Virus record (IMG/VR): IMGVR_UViG_3300044511_000013
Location: 1 to 64,000 of that record
DNA from: a virus
DNA: 64,000 bases
Direction: 5' to 3' (one strand)
Part shown: piece by piece, positions 25,155 to 39,620 of the stretch
How positions within the stretch are numbered: the stretch's first letter is position 1
Layout of the letters: each line of letters starts with the position of its first letter
The notes under the pieces: generated by a model
What the model was told of the DNA's origin: nothing
The model's database searches: none
The model's input: only the letters and a program-made list of their open reading frames with translations
Position numbers and translations under genes: made by a program

Positions 25155-26153
25155 CTACTGCACGATCGTGTTGAAAAAGATTCCGCAGTCGGCTGCCACA
25201 ACCTTGTGGTCGTACGCCATCTCCATCTCGATCCGGTCGGACTCCAGGTGCTCCATGCGCATCCGCTTCGTGCGGGTGCCCATCGCCCCGGCACCGTAGA
25301 GCCCGCTCCACGAGAACGTGTACCCGGCGCTCGGCATCATGATGCTCGGAGTCGGGTTGACGTAGAGGAGCAACGCCCCCTTGGTGGAGGCGACGTAGCT
25401 CATGGTCGCCGTGGCCGCTTCCTGAGCTGTGTTCTGTGTGGCACGGGCAACGAGCACCCGCTCCACGTTGAACAGCTGCGCCAGGAGCTGAAGCGTCGGG
25501 ATGGCAGGACCTTGGGTGTACTTGATGCGGTCGAGGATGACCGGGTGCACCAGGAGCTTTTGCTCCACGTACGGCGTGATGACGAGCGTGTTCGGCCGGA
25601 AGCCGGTCTGCTCATCCATCCGCATGGCGTAGGTCGTGACATCGTTGATCGGGTCAGACCCGGCACGGTCCCACTGGATGACCTGGTTGGCAGCCGCCGT
25701 GGCAGCACCGGTCACGTCGAGCGGAGCGCCCGTGATCCCGGCCCAAATGCCGGTGGTGAAGTACTTCGTCACCCACAGTTGGTCCTTCCTGAGGAGCATC
25801 TGCTGGGTGCAGAAGATCGTGGCGTCCCGGTCCATGTCGAGCGGGGTGTCCGTGTTGGCTCGGGTCTGGTCGTCCACGTCCTTGTGGACTGCGAACACCC
25901 GACAGAAGTACGTCGGGGTCGAGTCCACAGCCCAGCCGGAACCTGCCGACTCGGTGCTCGGGGCTCGCTCCTGAGCCTGGGTACGGAACCAATACGACTT
26001 GTCGTACGTGAAGTACCGGTTCGACTGCTTGTCGCTCGGGACAACCGGGAACACCTTGTCGGCGATGAACCGGTCTTCTCGCTGGATGTAAGCCACCGAG
26101 ATGTTCGTGAGCGGCACGTTGACGTGAACGTCGCTCCGTGTGGGCTGCGGCAT
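25155..26153 (-). CDS. Major capsid protein
   Basis: 332 residues, full length for an HK97-fold coat protein of the lambda gpE/encapsulin-like branch. It begins DVHVNVPLTNISVAYIQREDRFIADKVFP, in parts, the usual N-arm, and contains PNTLVITPYVEQKLLVHPVILDRIKY (P-domain helix and strand, in parts) and a C-terminal YDHKVVAADCGIFF strand. GGAGCACACG precedes ATG 26153. It follows scaffold and decoration genes in the expected order. No separate N-terminal delta domain, consistent with an external scaffold. Confidence 0.92.
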   Translation of the reverse strand: MPQPTRSDVHVNVPLTNISVAYIQREDRFIADKVFPVVPSDKQSNRYFTYDKSYWFRTQAQERAPSTESAGSGWAVDSTPTYFCRVFAVHKDVDDQTRANTDTPLDMDRDATIFCTQQMLLRKDQLWVTKYFTTGIWAGITGAPLDVTGAATAAANQVIQWDRAGSDPINDVTTYAMRMDEQTGFRPNTLVITPYVEQKLLVHPVILDRIKYTQGPAIPTLQLLAQLFNVERVLVARATQNTAQEAATATMSYVASTKGALLLYVNPTPSIMMPSAGYTFSWSGLYGAGAMGTRTKRMRMEHLESDRIEMEMAYDHKVVAADCGIFFNTIVQ

Positions 26154-26610: not shown

Positions 26611-27207
26611 TCACGCTCCCTGCTGGCTGTTGATGTACTGCTCGTACGACTCCGGCGTCAGCGCTTGCACGTACGCCTCCTCGCTGGTGAGCAACGGGTT
26701 CTGGTCCCGGAGGCTCTTGGCGATGGTGTCGATCTGCTGGGTGATCTCGCCGCCCGGCATGGCCGAGCCGATCTCCTCGAACAGCCTCGACTCCTTGACC
26801 GCCGTCGACGCCTTGGTGAGCGCCTCGACGGTCTTGTCGTAGGCCCCGGTGCCGTGCACCGCCTTGAGGGTCTCGACAATCTCGGCCTCGGGCATCGCCA
26901 GCCCGGAGAGGCCCTTGGCGATGTCGGTGATCTCCCGGTCGATCCGGGCCTGGCGCTCGGCCTTGGCAACCTCGGTGGCCTGTTCGGCTACCGCACGGGC
27001 CTGGGCCAGCTCGCCGTAGAGGCTCTTGACGATCGTCTGTGCTGCCGGGTCGAGCGACTTGAAGACGGTCTCCAGGTCGCTGTCATCGAACTTGGTCACG
27101 GGCTCGGGGTCCTCCTCGTGCTTGAGAATCTCGTCCTCCAGCTTGGTGATGTACTCCTGGACCCAATCGTCGAGGGCCTCGAAGTCGCCCTTTGCGGTTC
27201 CGGTCAT
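26611..27207 (-). CDS. Capsid scaffold protein
   Basis: 198 residues, acidic and almost entirely helical (EALDDWVQEYITKLEDEIL; ELAQARAVAEQATEVAKAE), ending in a short basic/polar tail, as expected for a scaffold that fills the prohead and is removed at maturation. ATG 27207 follows GAGAGGAA and a promoter-like box (27271-27238). Lies immediately before the decoration and coat genes. It does not carry the GHPFRGNQ tag found in the preceding genes. Confidence 0.75.
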   Translation of the reverse strand: MTGTAKGDFEALDDWVQEYITKLEDEILKHEEDPEPVTKFDDSDLETVFKSLDPAAQTIVKSLYGELAQARAVAEQATEVAKAERQARIDREITDIAKGLSGLAMPEAEIVETLKAVHGTGAYDKTVEALTKASTAVKESRLFEEIGSAMPGGEITQQIDTIAKSLRDQNPLLTSEEAYVQALTPESYEQYINSQQGA

Positions 27208-27237: not shown

Positions 27238-27271
27238 ACGGTACAGAGGCCGTCGGGCCAAGTGTTGTTCT
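27238..27271 (-). promoter_or_regulatory. Late promoter-like box upstream of scaffold/capsid genes
   Basis: Starts AGAACAACACTTGGCCC and, 28 bases from its start, has TACCGT (27243 to 27238). It overlaps the TAG of the upstream gene. The scaffold ATG is 30 bases after the hexamer with a ribosome binding site between. Strong alignment with the boxes at 49211 and 28318. Confidence 0.5.
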
Positions 27272-28277
27272 ACGAGCCCCTGTAGCCCTCTTGCCACCAT
27301 GCGGGGTTGTCCCGTACCCCGAGGGTGCCCCAGTTGATGTTGCTGTTGGTGCTGTTGCGCCACCACTCGGAGTCGTTGAGGTCCGTTGCCTTCTCGCCCA
27401 GCAACCGGTCCAACAGGCTCTTGCGCTTGGGCTTGGCGGGCTTCGGTGGCTCGGCCATCTTGCGGTCCCTCAGCGCCTTGCGCTTGGCCGCCGACGATGC
27501 TGCCGTGAGGGCGATCGCCGTCTTGTCGGTGTCCCAGTTGGCGTCCGCTGCCTCGACGGTGTTGCCGGTCAGCTTGCGCCAAGCGTCCTGCGAGAAGCCG
27601 TACTGGTTGCGCACACCGTCGCCAGTGTCCTCGGCCAACGCCTTGAACCAATCGGCCGGGGTCTTGTTGTAGCGCTTCGCCTGGTCCCGCCAGTCCGAAC
27701 CCGGCATCCCCTCGTCCGGTGCGTTGTCCCCGCCCAACCCCTTGACGTGCTGATTGCCCCGGAAGGGGTGGCCCGCCTCGCCGCTTGGGCCTGATCCACC
27801 GCCGCCCACCTTGACGTACTGGTTCCCACGGAACGGGTGTCCGGGGAAGTCACCCTTGGTGATCTTGGGCTTGGTGGGGTTCGGGTCGTCCTTCTTGGGA
27901 GGCTCCTCGCCGTCGACCATGAGCTTCTGGCGCAGCTTGGACCGCTTGTCGGTCGGCTTCTTGCGCTCAGGTATCTCCGGCTTCTCGTCCTCGGGCTCCT
28001 CGGCCTCACGGTCCTCGTCGAGTTCGTCCTTCTCGTCCTCGTCGAGGTCGGCTTCCTCGGTCCTGGGCTCGGGCTCGTCCTTCCCTGCAAACGGCTTCTT
28101 TTTGCCCTTGGGCTTCTCCGAACCGAGCGGCCGGTCGACATGGGTGTCGCCCCCGTCGGGTTCGGCCTTGGACACATCCCGCTTGAAGATCATCACTTCG
28201 GCACCGGGCTCAGCGGGTCGGTCGACCAGCGACACCCGACGCAAGCGGACCTTGCGGAGACGAGACACCCGAGCCAT
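27270..28277 (-). CDS. Tagged head protein with VSLVDRPA motif and acidic region
   Basis: 335 residues. The N-terminus LRRVSLVDRPAEPGAEV (residues 12-28) matches the C-terminal strand motif of prohead proteases. Residues 60-135 are highly charged (Glu/Asp/Lys). The GHPFRGNQ tag occurs twice, at 141-157 (KGDFPGHPFRGNQYVKV) and 169-180. A C-terminal part (195-250) has a small helical unit, SLLDRLLGE at 287-295, and a Trp-rich end (WWRNSTN, NPAWWQEGY). It may be part of the protease/scaffold core. ATG 28277 lies 7 bases after TACGCT without a ribosome binding site. Confidence 0.8.
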   Translation of the reverse strand: MARVSRLRKVRLRRVSLVDRPAEPGAEVMIFKRDVSKAEPDGGDTHVDRPLGSEKPKGKKKPFAGKDEPEPRTEEADLDEDEKDELDEDREAEEPEDEKPEIPERKKPTDKRSKLRQKLMVDGEEPPKKDDPNPTKPKITKGDFPGHPFRGNQYVKVGGGGSGPSGEAGHPFRGNQHVKGLGGDNAPDEGMPGSDWRDQAKRYNKTPADWFKALAEDTGDGVRNQYGFSQDAWRKLTGNTVEAADANWDTDKTAIALTAASSAAKRKALRDRKMAEPPKPAKPKRKSLLDRLLGEKATDLNDSEWWRNSTNSNINWGTLGVRDNPAWWQEGYRGS

Positions 28278-28284
28278 CCCGGCC

Positions 28285-28318
28285 AGCGTACGAGTGTGCG
28301 CCGTGCAGGTGTTGCTCT
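28285..28318 (-). promoter_or_regulatory. Late promoter-like box upstream of the 335-aa tagged gene
   Basis: Starts AGAGCAACACCTG at the A of the upstream TAG stop; TACGCT (28290 to 28285) begins 28 bases later. The ATG at 28277 is only 7 bases downstream of the hexamer and has no ribosome binding site, which points to a leaderless mRNA. Confidence 0.5.
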
Positions 28319-29573
28319 AGCCGAGCAAGCGGAACCGGAGCTGATCCCGAGCCTCGTCGTTGCAACCGAGGCACGGTGTGCGCTTCTTCAGGTCCGCCCC
28401 GATGCCCACTCCGGGGATGCCCCAGTCCTCGGTGAACTGGTTGGCCTCCACGAGCACGTCGAGGATGCTGGCGTTCACCCGGCGTATCGGCAACTTGATG
28501 TCGCCTTCCTTGTTGTCCTCAAGGTCCACCGCCACGGCAGCCGCCCAACGGTGGTGGCCGTCGATCACGTAGTTGTCGGCCGACACGAAGATGGAGCCCG
28601 AGCCCAGGTCCATCGAGCCGTCCTTGATGCTCGCCACCATCCCGGCGACGTTGGCACCGTCCAGCTCATTCTGCGTGGCCTTCAGGTAGCTCGCCAGCTC
28701 GGACCCCTCGGACACGTCGATGCCCTTTGACTCCATGTGCTGGACGAACTGTTCGGCGAGGTTGACCCGGCCCTTGTTGTCCCGAGGCTGCTTGTCGGCC
28801 TCAGACCCCTCGACCGGCGTCTTGGTGGTGAACTGCGGCATCTTGAGCCTGGGGATGCCCTTCGATTCGGTGCAGAACAAGTTGGTCCCCGGCACCGACA
28901 CCTTGCACAGGTCGTAGGTGGGGGCCTTCTCGCCCTTGGCCACGGCGTCGTCCACTATCTCCTTGAGCTTGCTCAGCAACGTGCTGACTTCCCGCTTCGA
29001 GGAGAGTTCGACGTGGTACCCCTCGGCCAGCGCCTTGACGGCCTCGTCGACCGTCTTGGCCCGCACGGTCTCGCCCTTCTTGGGCTTGCGGCCTCCGTAC
29101 GCCTCCAGCTCGGCCTTGGCCTCCGCCTTGCCCGGAGACTGGCCTTGCTCCGCCCACCTCGCTGCATCGAGCGTGTCGAGCCGAGGCCGGGAGAGACGGC
29201 TGCGCAACCGGTCCCGGAGGGTGGAGCGCTGCTTCGTCTTCTTCGGGCCGCCGCCACCGATGCCCCCGGTGTGCTGATTGCCCCGGAACTTGTGGCCTAC
29301 GGCCTCGCCCTTGGCCAACTTCTGCTTGCGGTACTCATCGAGCACCTCGTAGTACTGCTCTCGGGTGAAGGCACCCCGGTCGTTGGCAGCGTCCACGGCA
29401 AACCACGTGTGTGACCGATCAACCTCAAAGGCGTAGCCGTCCCAGCCGTTCTGCCAGTTCCGGCGCACCGAGTAGGGCACTTCCTCGTGCCGCACAAAGG
29501 GGTACGAGAGGATGAGCGCCTTCTGCGCTGGCCAGTCGCCCTTCAGATCGAGCAGGTCGGTTTCGAGGCTCAT
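28317..29573 (-). CDS. Tagged head protein with ParB/Srx-like DGHHR domain
   Basis: 418 residues from ATG 29573 (ATGA overlap with the protease/kinase gene). Residues 1-85 form an N-terminal domain rich in aromatics. The tag KGEAVGHKFRGNQHTGG is at 88-104, followed by basic repeats LRDRLRSRL. A middle domain (LPRLKMPQ-type phrase GIPRLKMPQF, then ELASYLKATQNELDGANVAGM) leads into VSADNYVIDGHHRWAAAVAV, the ParB/sulfiredoxin-like DGHHR motif that in relatives binds nucleotide and can act as nuclease or NTPase. Two cysteines in PCLGCND near the C-terminus. Ends LRFRLLG. Likely head-packaged; substrate unknown. Confidence 0.82.
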   Translation of the reverse strand: MSLETDLLDLKGDWPAQKALILSYPFVRHEEVPYSVRRNWQNGWDGYAFEVDRSHTWFAVDAANDRGAFTREQYYEVLDEYRKQKLAKGEAVGHKFRGNQHTGGIGGGGPKKTKQRSTLRDRLRSRLSRPRLDTLDAARWAEQGQSPGKAEAKAELEAYGGRKPKKGETVRAKTVDEAVKALAEGYHVELSSKREVSTLLSKLKEIVDDAVAKGEKAPTYDLCKVSVPGTNLFCTESKGIPRLKMPQFTTKTPVEGSEADKQPRDNKGRVNLAEQFVQHMESKGIDVSEGSELASYLKATQNELDGANVAGMVASIKDGSMDLGSGSIFVSADNYVIDGHHRWAAAVAVDLEDNKEGDIKLPIRRVNASILDVLVEANQFTEDWGIPGVGIGADLKKRTPCLGCNDEARDQLRFRLLG

Positions 29574-31009
29574 CCCGCCGCCACCAGTCGACCACCTTGC
29601 GTGCCATCCCACACCTGCCAGCCTCGATCGGCGAGGTGCTTGACCTCCTCGAAGGCACGCCGGTTCACGCTCGAATACACCGGGTCCCGTGACTCCTCGA
29701 CCACGCTCTCGGGCACATAGCGCCCGCCAAGGGGCGTCAACAGCGAGTCCATGTAGCGCTTCCTGATCCGCTGCTTCGACACCTCCACCGGCACGTCCAT
29801 GAACAACAACCGGAGCTTGTACTTCGGGCCGTTGTCATCGAGGAGCGGCTTGAGCCGCTTGTGAACCTGGCCGGGGTTGCTCATGGTGATGTCCCAGATG
29901 AAGTTCACACCAACCTCGCTGGCTGCGTCAGCGAGCCTCTTGGACAAGTCGGCAGCCTCCTCGTGGTACAGCTCGGCCAGCTCCATGGGCTTGAAGTAGT
30001 CAAGCTCCTCGAACTCATCGGGCAGCCCCGCTCGCTCCGCCAAGATGACCTTGAGGTCGTCGTTGCTGATGTTGAGGTACAGCTCCTTGGGCAGCCCCGC
30101 CCTCGGGTCCTTGAGCATCGTTGACTTCCCGGCACCAGGCAGGCCACCGGTCATGGCCACCTCGGCCTGGCGAGGCACGTTGGCGGCTTCCGCCATGATC
30201 TCGTCGATGATCTCGTCGTGGAGCTTGCGGCGCTCAGCGATGTAGCCACCGGTCTCGGGGTCGGTGTAGTACCCCTTCGTGTCGAGTCCGGCGTCCATGT
30301 AGCGCTTGTTGGTTGCGGTCACGAGTTCGAGGTGATCCAGGACCGCCTCGGTCAGCTCGCCAGTGGCGTCGTAGTGCGCCACGGCCTCCTTCACCCACGG
30401 CTCATCGTTGGTCCACGGTTCGACGGGCCTGCCGGGCTTCGAGGTAACCCGGCTGAGTGCGTGGGATGCGGTCGGTGGGGTCTTCCCCCGTGACGGCACC
30501 TTGACGTACTGATTCCCACGGAAGGGATGACCCTCGAAGTCACCCTTGGCCAGGTCGTCGGCGTCGAGGTACTCACGGTGCCCCGAACCGCCGACCGAGA
30601 AGCCCTTGTAGCGCCCCGACTTGACCTCTTGCCACACCCGGTCGTCCCGGACCTTGAAGCCGACCCACCAGGCCATCGGCAGCGTGCCGTCGGGCACGCC
30701 CATCTTGGCCAACTTCTCCGGTGTGAAGGCCATGGACTCCACCAGGTCGGCCACCGGCACGTCGTAGTGCATCTCGTCGCCGAGGCGTGACTCCAGAGCG
30801 AAGTGGTACGCCATGTCCTCCAGCTCGGCCGGGTCGTCGATGAAGTCGCCTTGCTTGTCGATGCGCAGCGAGCCGTCCGGGTTGGTCGCTCGGTAGGCCC
30901 AGCCGAACACGAGCCTGCGGTCCTCATCGAGCTTGAGCACGTCGTCAGTGGCGTCGGCGAACTCGGTCTCACCGAGCAACCGTTGACGGAGCATGGCCCG
31001 AGATGTCAT
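29570..31009 (-). CDS. XkdF-type prohead protease fused through a tag to a zeta-toxin-like kinase
   Basis: 479 residues with two domains. Residues 32-145 match XkdF-type phage serine proteases: VFGWAYRATNPDG, DKQGDFIDDPAELE, GDEMHYD (His81), LVESMAFTPEKL, WWVGFKV and YKGFSVGGSG (Ser138 as likely nucleophile). The tag spans 155-171. Residues 283-400 are a P-loop kinase of the zeta-toxin/AAA type: TGGLPGAGKST (Walker A, 287-297), LNISNDDLK and IWDITMS. Zeta kinases phosphorylate UDP-sugars or other small molecules. Near its N-terminus it has LRQRLLGE. The protease would cut scaffold and perhaps tags; the kinase could be released by self-cleavage. That step is inference. Confidence 0.88.
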   Translation of the reverse strand: MTSRAMLRQRLLGETEFADATDDVLKLDEDRRLVFGWAYRATNPDGSLRIDKQGDFIDDPAELEDMAYHFALESRLGDEMHYDVPVADLVESMAFTPEKLAKMGVPDGTLPMAWWVGFKVRDDRVWQEVKSGRYKGFSVGGSGHREYLDADDLAKGDFEGHPFRGNQYVKVPSRGKTPPTASHALSRVTSKPGRPVEPWTNDEPWVKEAVAHYDATGELTEAVLDHLELVTATNKRYMDAGLDTKGYYTDPETGGYIAERRKLHDEIIDEIMAEAANVPRQAEVAMTGGLPGAGKSTMLKDPRAGLPKELYLNISNDDLKVILAERAGLPDEFEELDYFKPMELAELYHEEAADLSKRLADAASEVGVNFIWDITMSNPGQVHKRLKPLLDDNGPKYKLRLLFMDVPVEVSKQRIRKRYMDSLLTPLGGRYVPESVVEESRDPVYSSVNRRAFEEVKHLADRGWQVWDGTQGGRLVAAG

Positions 31010-31953
31010 TGGTCCAGTATCGCCTTGCGGAGCCGGTCACGGGCGCTCTTGGGGCCGATGTGAAACACCCGGCCGAGCGACGCATGGTGCGAGCCGGTCA
31101 CGTCGTAGGCGTTGTCTGCGTCCGAGCTGGCCTGGGCCATGGCAGGTCGCTGCCGCCGTGCCTTGAGCAGTCGGACGAGCGCAGCCAGCCGCTTGCGCAG
31201 CTCCTCGGGCAGTAGCAGCACCTTCTGTGGGCCGAAGTAGCCCCGCTGGATCAGGAAGGCGTTCTGGCCCCGCAGCTCGGTGGCCGCAGCCTTGGCGGCC
31301 TCGGTGCTGAACATCGACAAGTGAGCCTGGTAGGCGGCCTCCTCACCGTGCCGGTCGAACGCACGGCCGGTCCCGAGGTGGCCGAAGGCATCGTGCACCG
31401 CCCGGAACTTGTCATTCTGTTCGTTGGTGAGGTACGGGTGACCCCCGGTGGCCTCCGTCTTCAGAATCTTGAGCCGGTTGTGGCTAAGGAAGTCATCGAG
31501 CATCTCGGCGTAGTTCGCATACGGGTCGTCGTCGGTGTACTCGATCTTGATGCCGAGCTGATCGGTCAGGATCGAATACTGCTTGTCCAGCTCGCCGATC
31601 AGTGCCTCGTAGGCCCGCCGAACCTCTGCATCCGGCACGGCGTCCTCGGGGGCCTCCTCGTAGAACTTGGCGATGGCCTCCCGCCGCTCCGGCGTGATCG
31701 CCCGTGTAGCGCTCCAGTCACGCTGATCGCCGTGGAACTTCTTGAGGGCCTTGACCGGCGTGGCCATGACCATCTCGACGCCATCGTGCGACGTGATGGA
31801 TCGGACCTGGCCCGAGACCTTGACGTACTGATTCCCCCGGAAGGGATGACCCTCGTAGTCGCCCTTCTTGATCCGTGCGAGTTGCCGCTCGTCGTCGTCC
31901 TCACTCGTGTCGAACGGCCACACGCTGATCTCGTCCAGCCCGAGGTACTTCAT
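31006..31953 (-). CDS. Tagged head protein with conserved VHDxFGH domain
   Basis: 315 residues; ATG 31953 overlaps the upstream stop (ATGA). The tag KGDYEGHPFRGNQYVKV is at 30-46. Residues 170-235 contain FRAVHDAFGHLGTG (His187, His192), a GEEAAYQAH motif (Glu204, Glu205, His211) and TELRGQNAFL, a set I recall from phage head-fusion and polyvalent proteins without a described function; the His/Glu pattern suggests metal binding. A C-terminal helical part is basic (LRKRLAALVRLLKARRQR) and ends DRLRKAILDQ. Unknown activity. Confidence 0.8.
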   Translation of the reverse strand: MKYLGLDEISVWPFDTSEDDDERQLARIKKGDYEGHPFRGNQYVKVSGQVRSITSHDGVEMVMATPVKALKKFHGDQRDWSATRAITPERREAIAKFYEEAPEDAVPDAEVRRAYEALIGELDKQYSILTDQLGIKIEYTDDDPYANYAEMLDDFLSHNRLKILKTEATGGHPYLTNEQNDKFRAVHDAFGHLGTGRAFDRHGEEAAYQAHLSMFSTEAAKAAATELRGQNAFLIQRGYFGPQKVLLLPEELRKRLAALVRLLKARRQRPAMAQASSDADNAYDVTGSHHASLGRVFHIGPKSARDRLRKAILDQ

Positions 31954-34900
31954 GCGCTGCCTCCCGGTGCGAGTGTGGCGTCCAGGTCGGTCTCCAGCTC
32001 CTTCTCCAGGTACCAATGCCAGGAGTTCAGGCCGGTACTGACATGCCGCCACTTCCAGCCCTCCGGTGGAGGCGTCTTGGGGTGGAAGCCAGCAACCTTC
32101 TCGCTGGTGCTAGTGACGATCATCTCGTGCACCAGGCTCTTGTACGCCATCTTGAGCTTGTGGGCCACATTGAGCGGGCCTTGGAACACCGCCTTGTCGT
32201 ACTCGTTTAGCGCATACCCCATCGTGATGGCCGCCTGGGCTTCTACGGAATCGGAGGACCAGCCGCCCGTCTCGGTGAAGTGCTCCGAGGCTACCAAGGC
32301 CGGGGGCAGCAGAGCTTTCGTGGCAGGGATGCGCTCCAGGTACCACTGGTTCTGGACTATGCCGCTGCCGAGGTACCGCCACCTCCAGCCCTTCGGTGTC
32401 GCCACCTTGGTCAGATCGGGTCCGGCTGTGGTCCAGGAGGCGTGAAGTTCGTTGTAGGCATTCCACGCCGCCGCCAGCGTCATGCCCCAGTTGTCGTAGA
32501 GGTAGTTGGGGTCGACGGACCAGGCATCCGATGCCGTGTCCCATGAGCTGTAGCCGAACGTGGCCGCCGCTTTCGCCTTGGCCCCCCCGACCTTCCATCC
32601 TGACTGGGTGAGCTGACCGGTCAATGTGAGGTAGTGCGGAAGTTCGTGGGGCTTCGCAGCGCTCGGACCACTGGGATCGGGCTTCTCGGCAACCGGCCCG
32701 TCGGGGTCGTAGTCGAGGAACCACTGCCTCGCCACCAGGCCCGTACCGATGTGACGCCACGCCCAGCCTTTCGGCGTGACGAGCTGGGCAACGGCGTCTT
32801 GCTTGATCCAGCCGCCCGGCGAGTCCTCCGAGAGGTTCGTCATGGCGGTGTAGGCATCTGCAATCTCATTCGGGCTCACGTTTCCGCTCCCGTCCAGCGG
32901 TGCGTTGGGCGTGAACACCTCACTCCAGTCGGCCCAGCCGAGCGTGATCGCAGCCTTGTCCTCGTCCTCGATGGTGTGAAGCCAACCGATCTCGTCCGGG
33001 TAATCCACGTCGTCTGCCACCCACTGCCAGGCACCCGATTCGGTGATCCACTTGGGCACCTTGTCGGCAGGACCTGGCAGAAGCTGAGGATGGTCGGGTT
33101 GATCGGGTTGATCTATCGGAACCGGGTTCTCGGTGGCGATCTTGAGCCCGTAGTTATACGCCATGGCTCTGTGGGCATCTCCCGCCATGACCGACCAAGC
33201 AAACCCCGGTGGGGCGATCGGCAAGGGGTTCCCGGCCACGACGGCAACGGGGTGCACGAACTCCCCCTCCACTGTGCTGCCGTCGCCCCAGGTGATCCAG
33301 CTCCCGGCAACCGGTTGGCTCAGAGTGCTGCCGTAGCCCTCCTGGTAGTAGCTACTCACGAAGTCTTTGTGGACTTCGGAGAACTGGTTGGCGAACTCGG
33401 CGATGCTCTTGGGCGGCGAGTACGTCTTCCCGTTCCACTCGATCCCCAGCTCCTGAGCCAGCGGCTTCTCCGGGGCCTCCGGGGTCTCGGTCGAAGCCGC
33501 CAGCGCCGCTCCCATCACCGTGTCGGGGTCGGCCAACCGCTCGGGTATCTTCTGCGCCAGCCACTTGCTGTGGGAGATGTAGGGCTTGCTGGAGGTGGGC
33601 AAGGCCACGAACTCAGGACTGGTGGTCTGGACCGTGCGCCCAGGACCGGTCGAGAGGTTCGTGGGCACCAGCACCCAGTCTTGCGGCATCGCCCGGTAGT
33701 CGTCCAATGAGGCCCATTCGGTCCTGGCCCACTTGTACCCCTCGGGCGGATCGAAGTCGTACGGGTGGCCCAAGGTGTCCAGCTCGGTCGGGTGGATCAC
33801 AAAGTCGGTCCCCGGATAGGTCAAGGTGGACGCAGGCAGGTCGACTCCGGGCTTCAGGTCGGGCTTCTGAATCCACATCTTGGTACCCAACTCGTAGGTC
33901 TTGGGGACCTTGAGCTGCCATCGCATTCCTTGCACCGGCAGCAGGTTCGGTATGTCACTGCTGCACTGCTGCCACCTGTTGTCGGCGACCAGCTCGGGGT
34001 TGCGAGCCACGCCCTTCTCGGCCTGGGACCACGCTGGCGCACGGATACCCGAGGAGAGAAGGGGCCTGCTGGCCAAGCGGCTGGCCTGCGCCTCCACCGC
34101 CGACGATTGGGTCACGCCCTTGAAGGGGTCGATCACACCGACCTGGCGGATGTCGACAACCCACGCACCTGAGAACTCGCTGTTCGAGTCGTGCCTCGGC
34201 GTGATCGCAGTGACCTCGTAGCGACCGCCCGTGGCCCACTCGTGTTCGGAGACGAATGCGGGGGACTGGCCGACATCCTTCCAGTGCTGATTGAACTTGA
34301 ACGCCTTGGCTCCCGGAGCCAGCCGGAAGATGATCGAGTGCGGGTTGTTGCCCGCATAGCTACGAGCCATGGACTTCGATGTCGTGAAGCCCCAGGCAGG
34401 CACGTCGATGACCGCACCGGGAAACAGGTTGGCCTTCTCCCGGAGCGTGTCGAGGTCGGTCACGTCCCCGATCTTCAGCTTGGCCTTGCCCCGGTACAAC
34501 GGCTGCGTCGTCGGAGCGCTCACCTTGATCCGCTCCAGCATGGCCAAGGCCGGGGCCAGGTCAACCTGGTCGTACCTGAACTGGCGTACGACCGGCTTGT
34601 AGCCGGTGACCGCCTCGATGGCCTTGCGGATGGCGGTCGGGCTGCCTTGCCAACTGTGGATGGCGTAGTCGAGTGCCTTCCCTTCCGACCCGCCCCACTG
34701 CGTCTCTTGCAGCAACGCCCGGTACTGCCCCAGGCTGAGCGGCATCCCGGTCTTGTGGCTGGGGCCGTAGACCTTGAGCTTCTTAGCGGCCGCCTTCTTG
34801 GCTGCCTTCTTGGCAGTGGCCGCCCACTGGGTGAGCATGTTGCCGTCATCGAGCTGATCCCGGCCACCTCGTGAAGGCACCTTGACGTACTGATTGCCCC

Positions 34901-34958
34901 GGAACGGGTGTCCTTCGTAGTCGCCCTTCTCGAACTCGACGACCTCGGTCAGTTCCAC
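31950..34958 (-). CDS. Tagged ADP-ribosyltransferase with Trp-rich C-terminal repeats
   Basis: 1002 residues. The tag is at 11-27, next to the N-terminus. A Lys/Ala helix (43-62) precedes an R-S-E class ADP-ribosyltransferase at about 75-260: PLYRG (Arg156), WGFTTSKSMARSYAG (Thr-Thr-Ser 192-194) and SEHEW (Glu238, Glu240) supply the three NAD-binding/catalytic blocks. The 740-residue rest has repeated modules with TPKGWAWRHIGTGLVARQW, TPKGWRWRYLGSGIVQNQW and PPEGWKWRHVSTGL, each followed by about 60-90 residues. By analogy with T4 Alt, it could modify host RNA polymerase or other proteins after ejection; the target is unknown. Start GTG 34958. Confidence 0.85.
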   Translation of the reverse strand: MELTEVVEFEKGDYEGHPFRGNQYVKVPSRGGRDQLDDGNMLTQWAATAKKAAKKAAAKKLKVYGPSHKTGMPLSLGQYRALLQETQWGGSEGKALDYAIHSWQGSPTAIRKAIEAVTGYKPVVRQFRYDQVDLAPALAMLERIKVSAPTTQPLYRGKAKLKIGDVTDLDTLREKANLFPGAVIDVPAWGFTTSKSMARSYAGNNPHSIIFRLAPGAKAFKFNQHWKDVGQSPAFVSEHEWATGGRYEVTAITPRHDSNSEFSGAWVVDIRQVGVIDPFKGVTQSSAVEAQASRLASRPLLSSGIRAPAWSQAEKGVARNPELVADNRWQQCSSDIPNLLPVQGMRWQLKVPKTYELGTKMWIQKPDLKPGVDLPASTLTYPGTDFVIHPTELDTLGHPYDFDPPEGYKWARTEWASLDDYRAMPQDWVLVPTNLSTGPGRTVQTTSPEFVALPTSSKPYISHSKWLAQKIPERLADPDTVMGAALAASTETPEAPEKPLAQELGIEWNGKTYSPPKSIAEFANQFSEVHKDFVSSYYQEGYGSTLSQPVAGSWITWGDGSTVEGEFVHPVAVVAGNPLPIAPPGFAWSVMAGDAHRAMAYNYGLKIATENPVPIDQPDQPDHPQLLPGPADKVPKWITESGAWQWVADDVDYPDEIGWLHTIEDEDKAAITLGWADWSEVFTPNAPLDGSGNVSPNEIADAYTAMTNLSEDSPGGWIKQDAVAQLVTPKGWAWRHIGTGLVARQWFLDYDPDGPVAEKPDPSGPSAAKPHELPHYLTLTGQLTQSGWKVGGAKAKAAATFGYSSWDTASDAWSVDPNYLYDNWGMTLAAAWNAYNELHASWTTAGPDLTKVATPKGWRWRYLGSGIVQNQWYLERIPATKALLPPALVASEHFTETGGWSSDSVEAQAAITMGYALNEYDKAVFQGPLNVAHKLKMAYKSLVHEMIVTSTSEKVAGFHPKTPPPEGWKWRHVSTGLNSWHWYLEKELETDLDATLAPGGSA

Positions 34959-34962
34959 CAGG

Positions 34963-36972
34963 TCATTCTGGCAGGAGCCGGTCCCGAAGTGACGCTCTGC
35001 GCTCGGCGTCCTCGACGGTCTCGTCGTCCAGTGCAGGGTCGTGCGGATACCCGGAACAGGACTGCTCGAACTCGACGATGGCGATGATCTTCGGCTTCTC
35101 AGCCTTGGTCACGGGGGCATCGTGCTCGGCCATGGCCACCACCTTCGTCACCATGTTCATCATGTACGGGTTGAGCTTGCGTTCCTTGCCCTTGGTGACC
35201 TTGTACTTGTCGGCGTACATGTAGGCGAAGGTCTCGGCGAAGTGCTCCGCCCCGGAATCCTTGGCGTACTCGCTTGGGGTCGGGGCTGAATGAGCACCGG
35301 GGAACCCCAGCGACTGGTCGAGGCCCTCGTGCAGCACCGTGCCGTTGAACTGCCACAGCTCTCCGGCCTCGGGCAGCTTGAGGTTCTCGGTCAGCCACCG
35401 CTGCCTGGCTCGGTTGTAGATGGCGTGCCCCATCTCATGCAAGAGGATGCCCGACAACCCCGAGTCGGTGGCCAGCCAACCCGTCTTCATGCTCTGGTCG
35501 CTGGAGGCCGGGGAGTGCTGTGAATTGAGCCCGATCCCGTGCACAAAGCGGTACTTGGAGTCGGCTTGCTGAGCTATGCCCATCGTGGTCGCCCCGCCAC
35601 ATTCTGCGCCGAGAGTGGCGTTGTACTCCCCGAGCCGGAAGGCATCGAGGCCCCGGAGCGTCTCGGGGAAGTCCTGAGCGACCTTGCGCAGTGTCTTGGC
35701 CATCGCCTCGATGTCGGCTTCAGTGACCCCTTCGGTGGCCCCGGTCACTTGCCACCCAGGAGGCCATTTGGAGGGATCGGATTTGAGCTGAACCTTGGCG
35801 TTGGGCATGTAGCGCTGGAACTCCTGCGTCAGGCGTTTCGTCGTCGGTGAGTCGCCGCCGCTCACGTGATCAAAGAACAACTGGTTGACGTACTTCGGGT
35901 GCTTGGCCGTCTGGTGGAAGCCATGGACCCCCGGCATCGGGTTGTTCCCGGCGCTCGGCACCTTGATGTACTGGTTGCCTCTGAAGGGGTGACCGGGGTA
36001 GTCGCCCTTGATGAGCCACTCGGACGGCTTGGTCTTGCGTGCCCGCCGCCGTGCCCGCTCTGCGATGAAGTTCTCCCGCCAGGCATCGAGCGACTCTCGG
36101 GCTCGGTCCTCGGCCTCCCGCCGTTGTTCCTGGTAGGTCTTCTGGCGTGGCTTCCGCCGTCTGCCGAACAACGGGTCGATGTCCCAGTTGGGTCCCAAGC
36201 CCATCGACGGCACCTTGAGCTGCCGTGACTCCAGCACCATGCGCCAGCGTGATGCGTTCGATGGGCTGATCCCGGCCTTGAGCCAAGCCCGCTCCACCTC
36301 GTCCACGTCGACATCGAGTATCCGCCTCAGCGAACTGAGTGCCTGATCGTCGGTCATCCGGCCGTACATGAGCTTGCCTTGATTGGACGTGCGCATCGTC
36401 TCGGGCTCAACCCACGGCCCGATGCTGAAGCTGTCCTTGGTACCGCCCATCGCCCGGAAGGCCATCGCCCCACCGGACTCGATGCGCACCGGCATCCCGG
36501 CCTCGTCCACGAGCGTGTTGTCTTGCTCCAGCCCGTGCACGTCCCAGTGCGAGAGCCAAGCGTCGATCCCGAAGTCCCGAGCGGCCCGCTCCTGGAGCGT
36601 GGCGTTGCTGGCCCACTCGGAGGCGCTCGCCTGGCGGAGTCCCTCGATCTTCTTGCTGATGATGACCGGACGGCCCGAGTCGTCGTGGTCGAACCTCGTC
36701 AGAGGGAAGTGCACCCCCGCCATGCGGTAGACGATGCCCCCGGCGATCTCATTCTGCACGTGGTCTTCGCTCTTGCCCGGCTTGACCAGGTAGCGCTGGC
36801 CCTCGGCGTCCTCGTACCACTGGCCGCCTTGGCTGCCGAGCGGACCCTTGACCTTTTTCATCCGCTTGATCGTGTCGTAGCCGGGAATGCCGCCCGTGTG
36901 CTGATTGCCACGGAACGGGTGCCCCTCGGCTTCGCCCTTGAGCAACCGGTAGCGCAGGCCAACCCTTGTCAT
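34963..36972 (-). CDS. Tagged kinase-like domain fused to HExGH metallopeptidase
   Basis: 669 residues; ATG 36972 overlaps the MuF gene stop. Tag copy one is at 12-28. Residues 45-215 resemble a HipA/PI-kinase-like fold: GGQWYEDAEGQRYLVKPG, HVQNEIAGGIVYRMAG, then HWDVHGLEQDNTLVDEAG and VRIESGGAMAFRA; the usual metal-binding Asp before the glycines is Glu165. Tag copy two is at 322-342. Residues 355-625 are a metallopeptidase with LLHEMGHAIYNRA (zinc His512, His516, catalytic Glu513) and AEHFAETFAYMYADKY (Glu576 or Glu580 as third ligand), paralogous to the MuF gene's domain. Ends LRDRLLPE. Confidence 0.83.
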   Translation of the reverse strand: MTRVGLRYRLLKGEAEGHPFRGNQHTGGIPGYDTIKRMKKVKGPLGSQGGQWYEDAEGQRYLVKPGKSEDHVQNEIAGGIVYRMAGVHFPLTRFDHDDSGRPVIISKKIEGLRQASASEWASNATLQERAARDFGIDAWLSHWDVHGLEQDNTLVDEAGMPVRIESGGAMAFRAMGGTKDSFSIGPWVEPETMRTSNQGKLMYGRMTDDQALSSLRRILDVDVDEVERAWLKAGISPSNASRWRMVLESRQLKVPSMGLGPNWDIDPLFGRRRKPRQKTYQEQRREAEDRARESLDAWRENFIAERARRRARKTKPSEWLIKGDYPGHPFRGNQYIKVPSAGNNPMPGVHGFHQTAKHPKYVNQLFFDHVSGGDSPTTKRLTQEFQRYMPNAKVQLKSDPSKWPPGWQVTGATEGVTEADIEAMAKTLRKVAQDFPETLRGLDAFRLGEYNATLGAECGGATTMGIAQQADSKYRFVHGIGLNSQHSPASSDQSMKTGWLATDSGLSGILLHEMGHAIYNRARQRWLTENLKLPEAGELWQFNGTVLHEGLDQSLGFPGAHSAPTPSEYAKDSGAEHFAETFAYMYADKYKVTKGKERKLNPYMMNMVTKVVAMAEHDAPVTKAEKPKIIAIVEFEQSCSGYPHDPALDDETVEDAERRASLRDRLLPE

Positions 36973-39620
36973 GTGCCGACCTCCAGCAAGCGGCTGCGCA
37001 GGTCCGTTCGGGCCTTGGCAACCCACCACTCGCCCGGCTTGTCCAACTCCACCACGGCATCGACAAGCTCGAATGGGATGGGCTGCCGGTTCTTGGCGTA
37101 CTCGTCGGTGGCGAAGTACCACTCGGCGTTGGGATCGACTTTGATGCGCACGATCACAGCATCGGTCGCCTTCGTCTTCTCCATCGGGAAGTAGAAGGCC
37201 CCGGTGCTCCGGGTCGAAGCCACCGTACCCTCGTTGCCGATGTTCTCCTCGCCCTTGGTCTGAATGAAGCCACGGGCCTGGGCCTCGTCGTACTCCCGCC
37301 GATCCATCACTCTGAACACGTGCTGAAGCTGCCGGGGAGGCCCGACCTTGACGAACGGCCTTAGGCCGTAACCCGGTCGCATCTCGCTCTGGTCGTAATC
37401 GGCGACGGTCTTGTCCATGGGCATCGGTGTCCAGTACTGGTACTCCAAGCCCATGCGGCCGACGATGTGGCCCTCGTCATCCCAGGCCACGACCATCCTG
37501 GCCTCGATCTCACCTTCCTTGAGGTGAACGCCGCCGCCCACCTTGTTGGGTGCGTACCGCTCCGGGTAGAACCGCTTGGGGTCTTGGAGCAACTTGGCCT
37601 CGTCGGTGAGGATGGCGTCCCAGGCCGCCGAGGTATTGCCTCCCGGCACGCTGATCTTTTTCGGCTGGTGGACGGCCGTCGGTTGGCTCCGGCTGCCCAC
37701 CTTGACGTACTGGTTGCCCCGGAAGGGGTGGCCCTCGAAGTCGCCCTTCTCGATGAGCGCAGGATCGGCCGGGTACCCGGAACAAGACTGCTGAACCTCG
37801 ATGATGGCCCCGATCTCCAGCTCGCTCTTGACAACCTTGTCGTACCGGAGAGGTGCGTCGTGCTCGGCCAAGGCGACCACCTCGGTCACGAAGCTCACCA
37901 TGTCCGGGTTGAGCTGACGGTCCTTGCCCTTCCTGACGCCGTACTTGTCGGCGAACATGTACGCAAACGTCTCGGCGAAGTGCTCATCGAAGTGCTCTTT
38001 GGCGTACCGACTCGGGTAGACGGGCGACCAGAGGTTGTCGACTCCCATCACCCACCGGAACGTGGTGTTGGTAACGAGACCCTCGAACTGGAAGCGGTCC
38101 CCCGGTTCCCTCGGCTTCGTGAACCCGTTGGTGAGCCAGCCGTGCTTGGCCCGGTTGTACACAGCGTGCCCCATCTCGTGCAGGAACGTGCCCGAGAGCC
38201 CCGAGTCGGTGGTGAGGTAACCCGAGTCCACGCTCGCATCGTGAAGGCTGGGCTTGGACGCTGCATTGAACCCGATCCCGTGGATGAAACGGACCTTGGT
38301 GGAGTTGGCAAGTTGAGCGATGGCGAACGTCGTAGCCCCACCAGCCGTCTCGCCAAGCTCGCCGCCGTAGTACCCGAAACGAAATGCGTCGAGTCCCCGC
38401 AATGTCTCGGGAAAGTCCTGAGCAACCTTGCGCACCGTCTTGGCCAGCGCCTCGATGTCTGCCTCGGAGACTCCTCGGCCGGGGTCCCCCGGCATGAGCG
38501 AGACCTTGGCATTCGGCATGTAGCGCCGGAACTCCTTCTCCAGACGGTCCATCGTCGGCGTGATAGGGGGGATCGGGTCGCTGATGAACACGTGCGATAG
38601 GTACGCCGAAACCGGATGGTCCTGATAGCCCAACTGCCTTGCCGGGTCCGGTGTCCCGGCACTGGGCACCTTGACGTATTGGTTCCCACGGAAGGGATGA
38701 CCTGGGTAGTCGCCCTTCTGTAGCTCCTCGATGAAGCTGGCGGCTGCCGGTGCGAACACGAGCCCCATCGTGCAGCGGCACTGGGGGTGCGCAGCCGGTC
38801 GCTCGAACACGCCGTACTTGCCCTCGAAGCTCTTGCCGATCGCCGCCAGCCTGCCGTGCAGGTCGGCGCATATCTCGCAGCGCTTCTCGTCCTTGGCGGT
38901 GATCCACACCCGCTTCGTGAACTCGGGGTCGGGGTCGATCATCCCGGCGTCCACTCCCGCTACCCAAGCGTCATCGAGACCGAGGTTCTGAGCGTGCATG
39001 ATCTCGGTCCTGGCGATGTTCCACGCCCGGTAGGTGCGGAGCCGTGTCGAGTAGGCCGCCACCTGAGCCCGGCGTGCCGCAGTGTTGACGCCCCGCTTGC
39101 GCAGCCCGGCATCGAAGTTGGCGACCGCCTGAGCGTGCTGGGGGAGCAACCCCACGAGACGCCGGATGAGCGGCACGGCGTCGTCGATGGCCCCGCCGCC
39201 CCGGACGATCGTGTCGAGGACCTGGCGAATAGACTCCTGGGTCGGCGATGTCGTCGCCACCAACCGGTGCGAAAGCTGCGACATGGACTCAACCGCCCAC
39301 GGGTTCGTGGCGTTGAAGGTCAACTTGGCCGGAACCATCGCCGAGACAGCCGCAGAGCCCGCCTGAGCGGCGTGGAGGTACGCCTGGGCCACCAGAGCCC
39401 GGATTTGCTCCAGGTCCAGCCACAGGCCCTCTAGCGCTGAGGCACTGGGATAGACGCCCCGCTCCATCTCGGTGAGGACCTTGCGCAGCGCATCGGAGCG
39501 ATTGAGCCGCCCCACTGAGCGCAGGAAGGCACGGGCGATCTGAGGCTCAAGCTGATTCGAGACGAGCCGCAGCACCCCCGCCAGCCTGGCCCCGTCGATC
39601 TGGACGTTGGCACCGGCCAC
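36969..39620 (-). CDS. MuF-like head morphogenesis protein fused to metallopeptidase and a third, ART-like domain
   Basis: 883 residues. Residues 150-290 are a Phage_Mu_F domain (ARTEIMHAQNLG, KRVWITAKDEKRCEICADLHG, AAHPQCRCTMGLV with Cys248, Cys251, Cys281 and Cys283), which binds portal inside the head. Tag one (302-322) leads to a metallopeptidase domain with FLHEMGHAVYNRA (His481, Glu482, His485) and DEHFAETFAYMFADKY. Tag two (625-641) leads to a C-terminal domain with VFRVMDRREYDEAQARGF, GTVASTRSTGAFYF and a PIPFELVDAV strand, resembling small ADP-ribosyltransferase-like folds. Ends LRSRLLEVGT. Start GTG 39620, 4 bases after the portal-side gene's neighbour. MuF plus enzyme fusions are known as phage-borne toxins. 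Confidence 0.85.
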   Translation of the reverse strand: MAGANVQIDGARLAGVLRLVSNQLEPQIARAFLRSVGRLNRSDALRKVLTEMERGVYPSASALEGLWLDLEQIRALVAQAYLHAAQAGSAAVSAMVPAKLTFNATNPWAVESMSQLSHRLVATTSPTQESIRQVLDTIVRGGGAIDDAVPLIRRLVGLLPQHAQAVANFDAGLRKRGVNTAARRAQVAAYSTRLRTYRAWNIARTEIMHAQNLGLDDAWVAGVDAGMIDPDPEFTKRVWITAKDEKRCEICADLHGRLAAIGKSFEGKYGVFERPAAHPQCRCTMGLVFAPAAASFIEELQKGDYPGHPFRGNQYVKVPSAGTPDPARQLGYQDHPVSAYLSHVFISDPIPPITPTMDRLEKEFRRYMPNAKVSLMPGDPGRGVSEADIEALAKTVRKVAQDFPETLRGLDAFRFGYYGGELGETAGGATTFAIAQLANSTKVRFIHGIGFNAASKPSLHDASVDSGYLTTDSGLSGTFLHEMGHAVYNRAKHGWLTNGFTKPREPGDRFQFEGLVTNTTFRWVMGVDNLWSPVYPSRYAKEHFDEHFAETFAYMFADKYGVRKGKDRQLNPDMVSFVTEVVALAEHDAPLRYDKVVKSELEIGAIIEVQQSCSGYPADPALIEKGDFEGHPFRGNQYVKVGSRSQPTAVHQPKKISVPGGNTSAAWDAILTDEAKLLQDPKRFYPERYAPNKVGGGVHLKEGEIEARMVVAWDDEGHIVGRMGLEYQYWTPMPMDKTVADYDQSEMRPGYGLRPFVKVGPPRQLQHVFRVMDRREYDEAQARGFIQTKGEENIGNEGTVASTRSTGAFYFPMEKTKATDAVIVRIKVDPNAEWYFATDEYAKNRQPIPFELVDAVVELDKPGEWWVAKARTDLRSRLLEVGT

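Follow-up and report, generated by a model that had tools for sequence, protein, structure and literature searches.

Polyvalent proteins of phages are multi-domain proteins linked to the head operon, with effectors that include zeta-type kinases, ARTs, ParB-like nucleases and metallopeptidases; such domains are believed to be ejected with the DNA and to do their work in the next host (Iyer 2017, PMC5512222). The same study reports zeta kinases fused to MuF, places assemblin-like peptidases always at the C-termini, and records the proposal that the metallopeptidases are processing enzymes. Head proteases that trim packed proteins are known from several phages. Phage T4 internal cargo bears a capsid-targeting sequence, and gp21 takes short N-terminal peptides off the internal proteins and Alt (PMC9958956), Pro of phage P1 cuts DarA (PMC12810830), and gp245 of SPN3US removes propeptides of 20-254 residues (PMC10052503).

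The DNA analysed here, referred to below as the window, is a 64-kb stretch of a 72,437-base record from an uncultured virus. Its head operon encodes a fusion protein that consists, in this order, of an XkdF-type prohead protease, a tag of 17 residues and a P-loop kinase of the zeta type. The ORF starts with ATG and runs uninterrupted for 479 codons, so that the three parts form a single chain:

29570 to 31009, minus strand: XkdF prohead protease-tag-zeta-type kinase fusion, 479 aa (ORF; Pfam PF14550 and PF06414; identical in the contig L008)
30578 to 30940, minus strand: XkdF/Peptidase_S78_2 domain, residues 24-144, with His81 and Ser138 (Pfam, 1.4e-18; conservation; model)
30497 to 30547, minus strand: the tag KGDFEGHPFRGNQYVKV, residues 155-171 (motif search; model pLDDT below 50 in residues 156-179)
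29573 to 30292, minus strand: modelled extent of the zeta-type P-loop kinase, residues 240-479 (Pfam; model; fold match; PDB profile)

As in polyvalent proteins, effector domains at this locus share a chain with, or adjoin, virion structural domains. Unlike the arrangement reported for those proteins (PMC5512222), the assemblin-like XkdF domain is N-terminal here and the kinase lies behind it.

The initial annotation had placed protease and kinase in one chain, and the 479-aa ORF bears this out, with both Pfam domains above their curated cut-offs: PF14550 (Peptidase_S78_2/XkdF) matches residues 24-144 with 67.5 bits (1.4e-18; cut-off 24 bits) and PF06414 (Zeta_toxin) matches residues 283-450 with 60.5 bits (1.9e-16; cut-off 22.3 bits). 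A split-gene or frameshift artefact was ruled out by the continuous ORF together with L008, another contig from this virus. L008 carries the whole fusion with 100% identity over 5184 bp, so that a break in a single assembly does not account for it.

The His/Ser pair assigned to the protease in that annotation is present, and the positions are correct. His81 and Ser138 are invariant in five XkdF proteins (alignment A1). A larger alignment (A3) has 61 rows, of which 56 keep each of the two residues; the other five are misaligned kinase-only sequences. The annotation had also called for structure prediction of both domains, which gave a clear zeta fold for the kinase (see below) and a less decisive result for the protease. 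The protease part was modelled confidently, with a pLDDT of about 90 across much of residues 30-135; its PDB matches to cytomegalovirus (HCMV) proteases were weak (Z 3.5-3.7, 85-91 residues) and tied with unrelated folds. A direct sequence search of the PDB with the fusion returned nothing significant.

The fusion shares the domain, the His/Ser pair and the operon position, between portal/MuF and scaffold/MCP, with XkdF/Peptidase_S78_2 prohead proteases, and differs from them in its C-terminal tag and kinase. Among XkdF relatives we found either no cargo, or ParB-like, ferritin or NUDIX cargo, or ART and 2H domains upstream. Since the bare, stand-alone relatives stop just past the FS.GG motif, the tag and kinase represent an addition to XkdF. 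We consider it an even proposition that the fusion protein is this phage's XkdF-type prohead protease carrying a head-packaged effector at its C-terminus.

The P-loop kinase noted from the sequence GLPGAGKST (Walker A, residues 289-297) has the predicted fold. Modelled alone with 66 sequences, the domain reached a pLDDT of 95.3 and a pTM of 0.90, and its best PDB match was a substrate-bound zeta toxin (3q8x, Z 17.4, 204 residues, 2.8 A), followed by 1gvn (Z 17.0) and PezT (Z 16.6). A profile of the kinase matched 1gvn in the PDB at 1.1e-21, and zeta and PezT ranked above polynucleotide kinases among the profile matches. In the 66 sequences, aligned with 1gvn, the Walker A Lys and the catalytic Asp are invariant and the two lid Arg are kept at 90% or more; the roles of these residues are presumably those they have in zeta toxin. 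The domain thus resembles the toxin kinases of the epsilon/zeta and PezAT systems in its P-loop kinase fold, Walker A motif, catalytic Asp and two lid arginines, and differs from them in belonging to a phage head protein; no epsilon-type antitoxin was noticed. The label 'toxin' is unproven for the modelled kinase: AvrRxo1, an NAD kinase, almost equals zeta toxin as a fold match (Z 16.5), and polynucleotide kinases also match, less well (Z 13.7).

The resemblance of the fold to polynucleotide kinases and other small-molecule kinases could be taken to mean that the fusion is incidental and that the kinase serves nucleotide or RNA metabolism of the producing cell, not the head. We hold this to be very improbable, as the profile fits zeta and PezT better than polynucleotide kinases and as the 68 viral zeta-type ORFs examined, the fusion included, are partnered with MuF in 7 cases, portal in 6 and XkdF in 2.

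The fusion is one of several tagged proteins in the operon. The gene order is MuF, three cargo genes, fusion, ParB-like cargo, an ORF opening with RVSLVDRPAEPGAEV, scaffold, cement and major head protein:

36969 to 39620, minus strand: head protein of MuF type, tagged twice, at 38679-38702 and at 37710-37733 (phrog_3517, 3.4e-25)
34963 to 37122, minus strand: two-tag cargo protein, its second cargo domain metallopeptidase-like with HEMGH (weak Pfam)
31950 to 34958, minus strand: large cargo protein of 1002 aa with an N-terminal tag (ORF; tag; no family match in Pfam or phrog)
31006 to 32052, minus strand: cargo protein with an N-terminal tag (phrog_3170, 6.5e-45)
28317 to 29612, minus strand: tagged ParB-like protein with GHHRWAA (phrog_2859, 1.6e-18; phrog_1033, ParB-like, 9e-4; tag)
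27270 to 28277, minus strand: ORF opening with RVSLVDRPAEPGAEV, then an acidic stretch, two tags and a C-terminal extension (motif, alignment)
26611 to 27207, minus strand: scaffold-like protein starting with MTGTAKGDFEALDD (by eye, similar to the C-terminal part of the scaffold ORF in L125)
25155 to 26153, minus strand: major head protein (phrog_1005, 3.1e-83)

In the MuF-type protein each tag precedes a further domain, one HExxH metallopeptidase-like and the other, C-terminal, without assignment. Both this protein and its neighbour at 34963-37122 carry a tagged HExxH (HEMGHA.YNRA) metallopeptidase-like domain, with Pfam matches below cut-off. The start of the scaffold-like protein contains AKGDFE, the first half of the fusion's tag, without GHPFRGNQ. 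L008 and the window differ at 27958-28071, in the acidic stretch of the ORF at 27270-28277, by a gap some 115 bases (39 codons) long.

The cargo genes of the window phage sit between MuF and scaffold. The gut phage L125 has the order portal-MuF-XkdF-scaffold-cement-MCP, with a bare XkdF of 156 residues and no cargo. In relatives the RVSLVDRPAEPGAEV element stands at the start of the ORF that follows XkdF, and a VSLVD-like element does so also in L125 and CRP-6. Because these two show the same split, the separation of protease and VSLVD element is ordinary and the kinase is the new part. An insertion of cargo that had split the protease from VSLVDRPA was considered and set aside, as L125 and CRP-6 are split without cargo there.

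The tag that joins protease and kinase is not peculiar to the fusion gene, its motif occurring ten times in seven head-operon proteins of the 64-kb window. Its consensus is [VLI]xKGDxxGHxFxGNQ[YWH]T, followed by a Gly-rich stretch. A pattern scan of viral contigs, matching at least 116 stretches, yielded at least 252 distinct copies on about 85 viral contigs among the matches listed. The tag also occurs in gp56 of the cultured Xanthomonas phage Rb1. Search and filter both demanded the GHxFxGNQ core. They did not demand the conservation of its flanks, and in the 252 tags from the matches listed the flanks comprise a hydrophobic residue at -7, K at -5 (65%), G at -4 (94%), D at -3 (85%) and Y/W/H/F at +8.

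Such a sequence could be a neutral flexible linker, or a recombination joint for the swapping of cargo, its conservation reflecting reuse of a cassette. The extreme diversity of the cargo, the variation of tags and cargo between phages, and the low model confidence of tag and linker, as in disordered stretches, would all agree with this. However, of the core codon pairs that encode the same residue within single phages, 26-53% differ synonymously, which implies that selection acts on the tag peptide and that the copies do not stem from recent DNA copying; a recent DNA repeat was ruled out on the same ground. Together with the conservation between unrelated phages these differences require selection on the peptide, and a neutral linker would not keep the pattern K-G-D-x-x-G-H-x-F-x-G-N-Q-[YWH], so that we regard a linker or joint as improbable.

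In prokaryote genomes the long form of the tag pattern had 0 matches and the short form 21, with about 15 chance matches expected for the short form by a hand estimate; by eye, 7 of the 21 lie in real tag contexts. Searches of open papers, with subscription papers mostly outside their reach, found none for GHPFRGNQ, none relevant for FRGNQ and nothing on an XkdF-zeta fusion. The tag was likewise not found by term search or in the available passages of the polyvalent-protein study (Iyer 2017, PMC5512222), and it bears no resemblance to the SPN3US cleavage motif. The tag is potentially a new signal, and the fusion a variation on the already known polyvalent proteins.

Tagged proteins have a fixed order: N-terminal part, tag, linker (usually Gly-rich) and domain. 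The part before the tag is a portal, MuF, XkdF, DUF2213 protease, DarA_N or scaffold domain, or a short leader; leaders such as M.NPFS..L.P.W..A.EILKGD and F(T/S)..ELLYPLTKGD are common to unrelated cargo of a phage. Behind the tag, 245 non-redundant segments fell into 143 similarity groups, 109 of them singletons, and the largest group was the ParB-like nuclease, both among the matches listed. As many as seven tags occur per chain among these matches. We conclude from these sequence features that the tagged proteins are probably phage-head cargo of the polyvalent kind, bearing a sorting or processing tag and handed to the next host.

A search for other XkdF-kinase fusions, which the initial annotation had suggested, found one in another phage (L261), where XkdF is followed by FNPYHDARGRFASANG and then zeta: the same design with a different tag. 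XkdF is combined with the tag and a ParB-like domain in L012 and L039, and with NUDIX cargo in L177. In addition, an XkdF protease-ferritin-like domain fusion with a degenerate tag near its C-terminus was observed in L143 (5815-7251, plus strand), and in L163 (4828-6441, plus strand) an ART-PolyVal domain and a 2H phosphoesterase (weakly Acb1-like) lie upstream of an XkdF protease in one chain. Of 45 records that bear the tag (22 kb or longer), 20 contained XkdF, compared with 1 of 10 unselected ones, a small control sample. Among the 45, S78 occurred in 3 and DUF2213 in 2, and any of XkdF, S78 or DUF2213 in about 25. The link between tag and protease is suggestive, not absolute; the other records may be incomplete or use other proteases.

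Taken as a whole, the explanation that we put forward is of a head-packaged kinase whose tag junction would be cut by the prohead protease, followed by ejection and action in the host; we judge its chances to be balanced. The protease part would carry the chain along with the scaffold into the prohead, as its family and operon position suggest. Tag and linker would form the junction between the head-resident N-terminal part and the cargo domain, an anatomy seen here and in many phages. During maturation the prohead protease would most likely cut at or beside the tag, in cis or in trans, leaving the kinase in the head. The kinase might then be ejected with the DNA and phosphorylate a host small molecule early in infection, with UDP-N-acetylglucosamine as the default guess for the substrate from the zeta family.

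The initial annotation had gone further, proposing that cleavage at the tag arms a toxin only in maturing virions. This is unsupported as such. In L032 the kinase is linked by this tag to a portal (Phage_portal PF04860), and in L024 and L041 to N-termini that are not proteases, so that 'arming' of the kinase does not depend on a protease in cis. Domains of this kind are believed to work in the next host (PMC5512222), not to be turned on as toxins while virions mature. As the tag also marks this phage's other cargo, the fusion would be one slot of a cargo system, as opposed to a switch dedicated to a toxin.

That the protease cuts at the tag is plausible. Such cleavage is favoured by the position of the tag between domains even in head-resident chains, by the occurrence of several tags in one chain and by the trimming of packed proteins by head proteases in T4, P1 and SPN3US. 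Alternatively, the tag could be an uncleaved docking or encapsidation signal for the scaffold, the capsid lining or the packaged DNA, so that kinase and protease travel whole. The strong aromatic/Asn/Gln/His core resembles a binding motif as much as a cut site, the short leader and tag that open small proteins look like a targeting signal, and a capsid-targeting sequence exists in T4 (PMC9958956). Against this, such a signal would be redundant where the chain already is a portal, MuF or protease, and up to seven tags per chain exceed the need for targeting. We consider docking rather unlikely, though less so than a linker. The redundancy of a targeting signal where the N-terminal part is itself a head protein favours a role in processing.

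In T4 a short N-terminal head-targeting leader precedes packing into the prohead, trimming by gp21 and ejection of the internal proteins and Alt. In relatives short leaders are seen on unrelated cargo, and in the fusion the protease occupies the position of the leader. Leader and tag differ from those of T4, and here whole structural proteins, too, are linked to cargo by the tag. The fusion suggests that a prohead protease is able to double as a cargo carrier. If the tag is a packaging or processing signal, it would offer a sequence handle on phage-injected proteins, many of them unannotated, and possibly a genetic tag with which phage heads could be loaded with proteins. It would also make an old question testable, namely how head-borne effector chains separate into working parts.

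Other tags occur in comparable positions. A second type, NPYHDxxGRF[AT], was found before cargo domains in L039, L064, L175, L177 and L261, and sometimes shares a locus with the GHxFxGNQ tag. A third, KHxxGxHDQxxHG, lies ahead of ParB-like and zeta domains in L132, L148, L275 and L283. Tag-like motifs ahead of zeta or ParB domains were found in L283, L295 and L277. Tentatively, and with somewhat less than even confidence, we propose that the GHxFxGNQ, NPYHDxxGRFA, KHxxGxHDQxxHG, AGRKAAxARWG and GGFxPGNxC tags act as a general head-cargo signal at which the prohead protease would free effectors inside the head. If the tags are general, a hidden class of phage-delivered effectors could be listed by tag search alone. 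Tag dialects mix within one locus (D1 with D2 or D3), which would speak against cleavage, since one sequence-specific protease must then accept tags of different type. D1 occurs mostly with FSVHG proteases and D2 mostly with FSIEG, a pairing that kinship could equally explain. Finally, gp114 of Halovirus HCTV-5 (L126), a zeta and ParB-like protein encoded near MuF, has a repeated motif, DPTE[EQ]AP[DN]RWTHTETGEHRYQETKP, between its domains; in archaeal viruses this motif may correspond to the tag.
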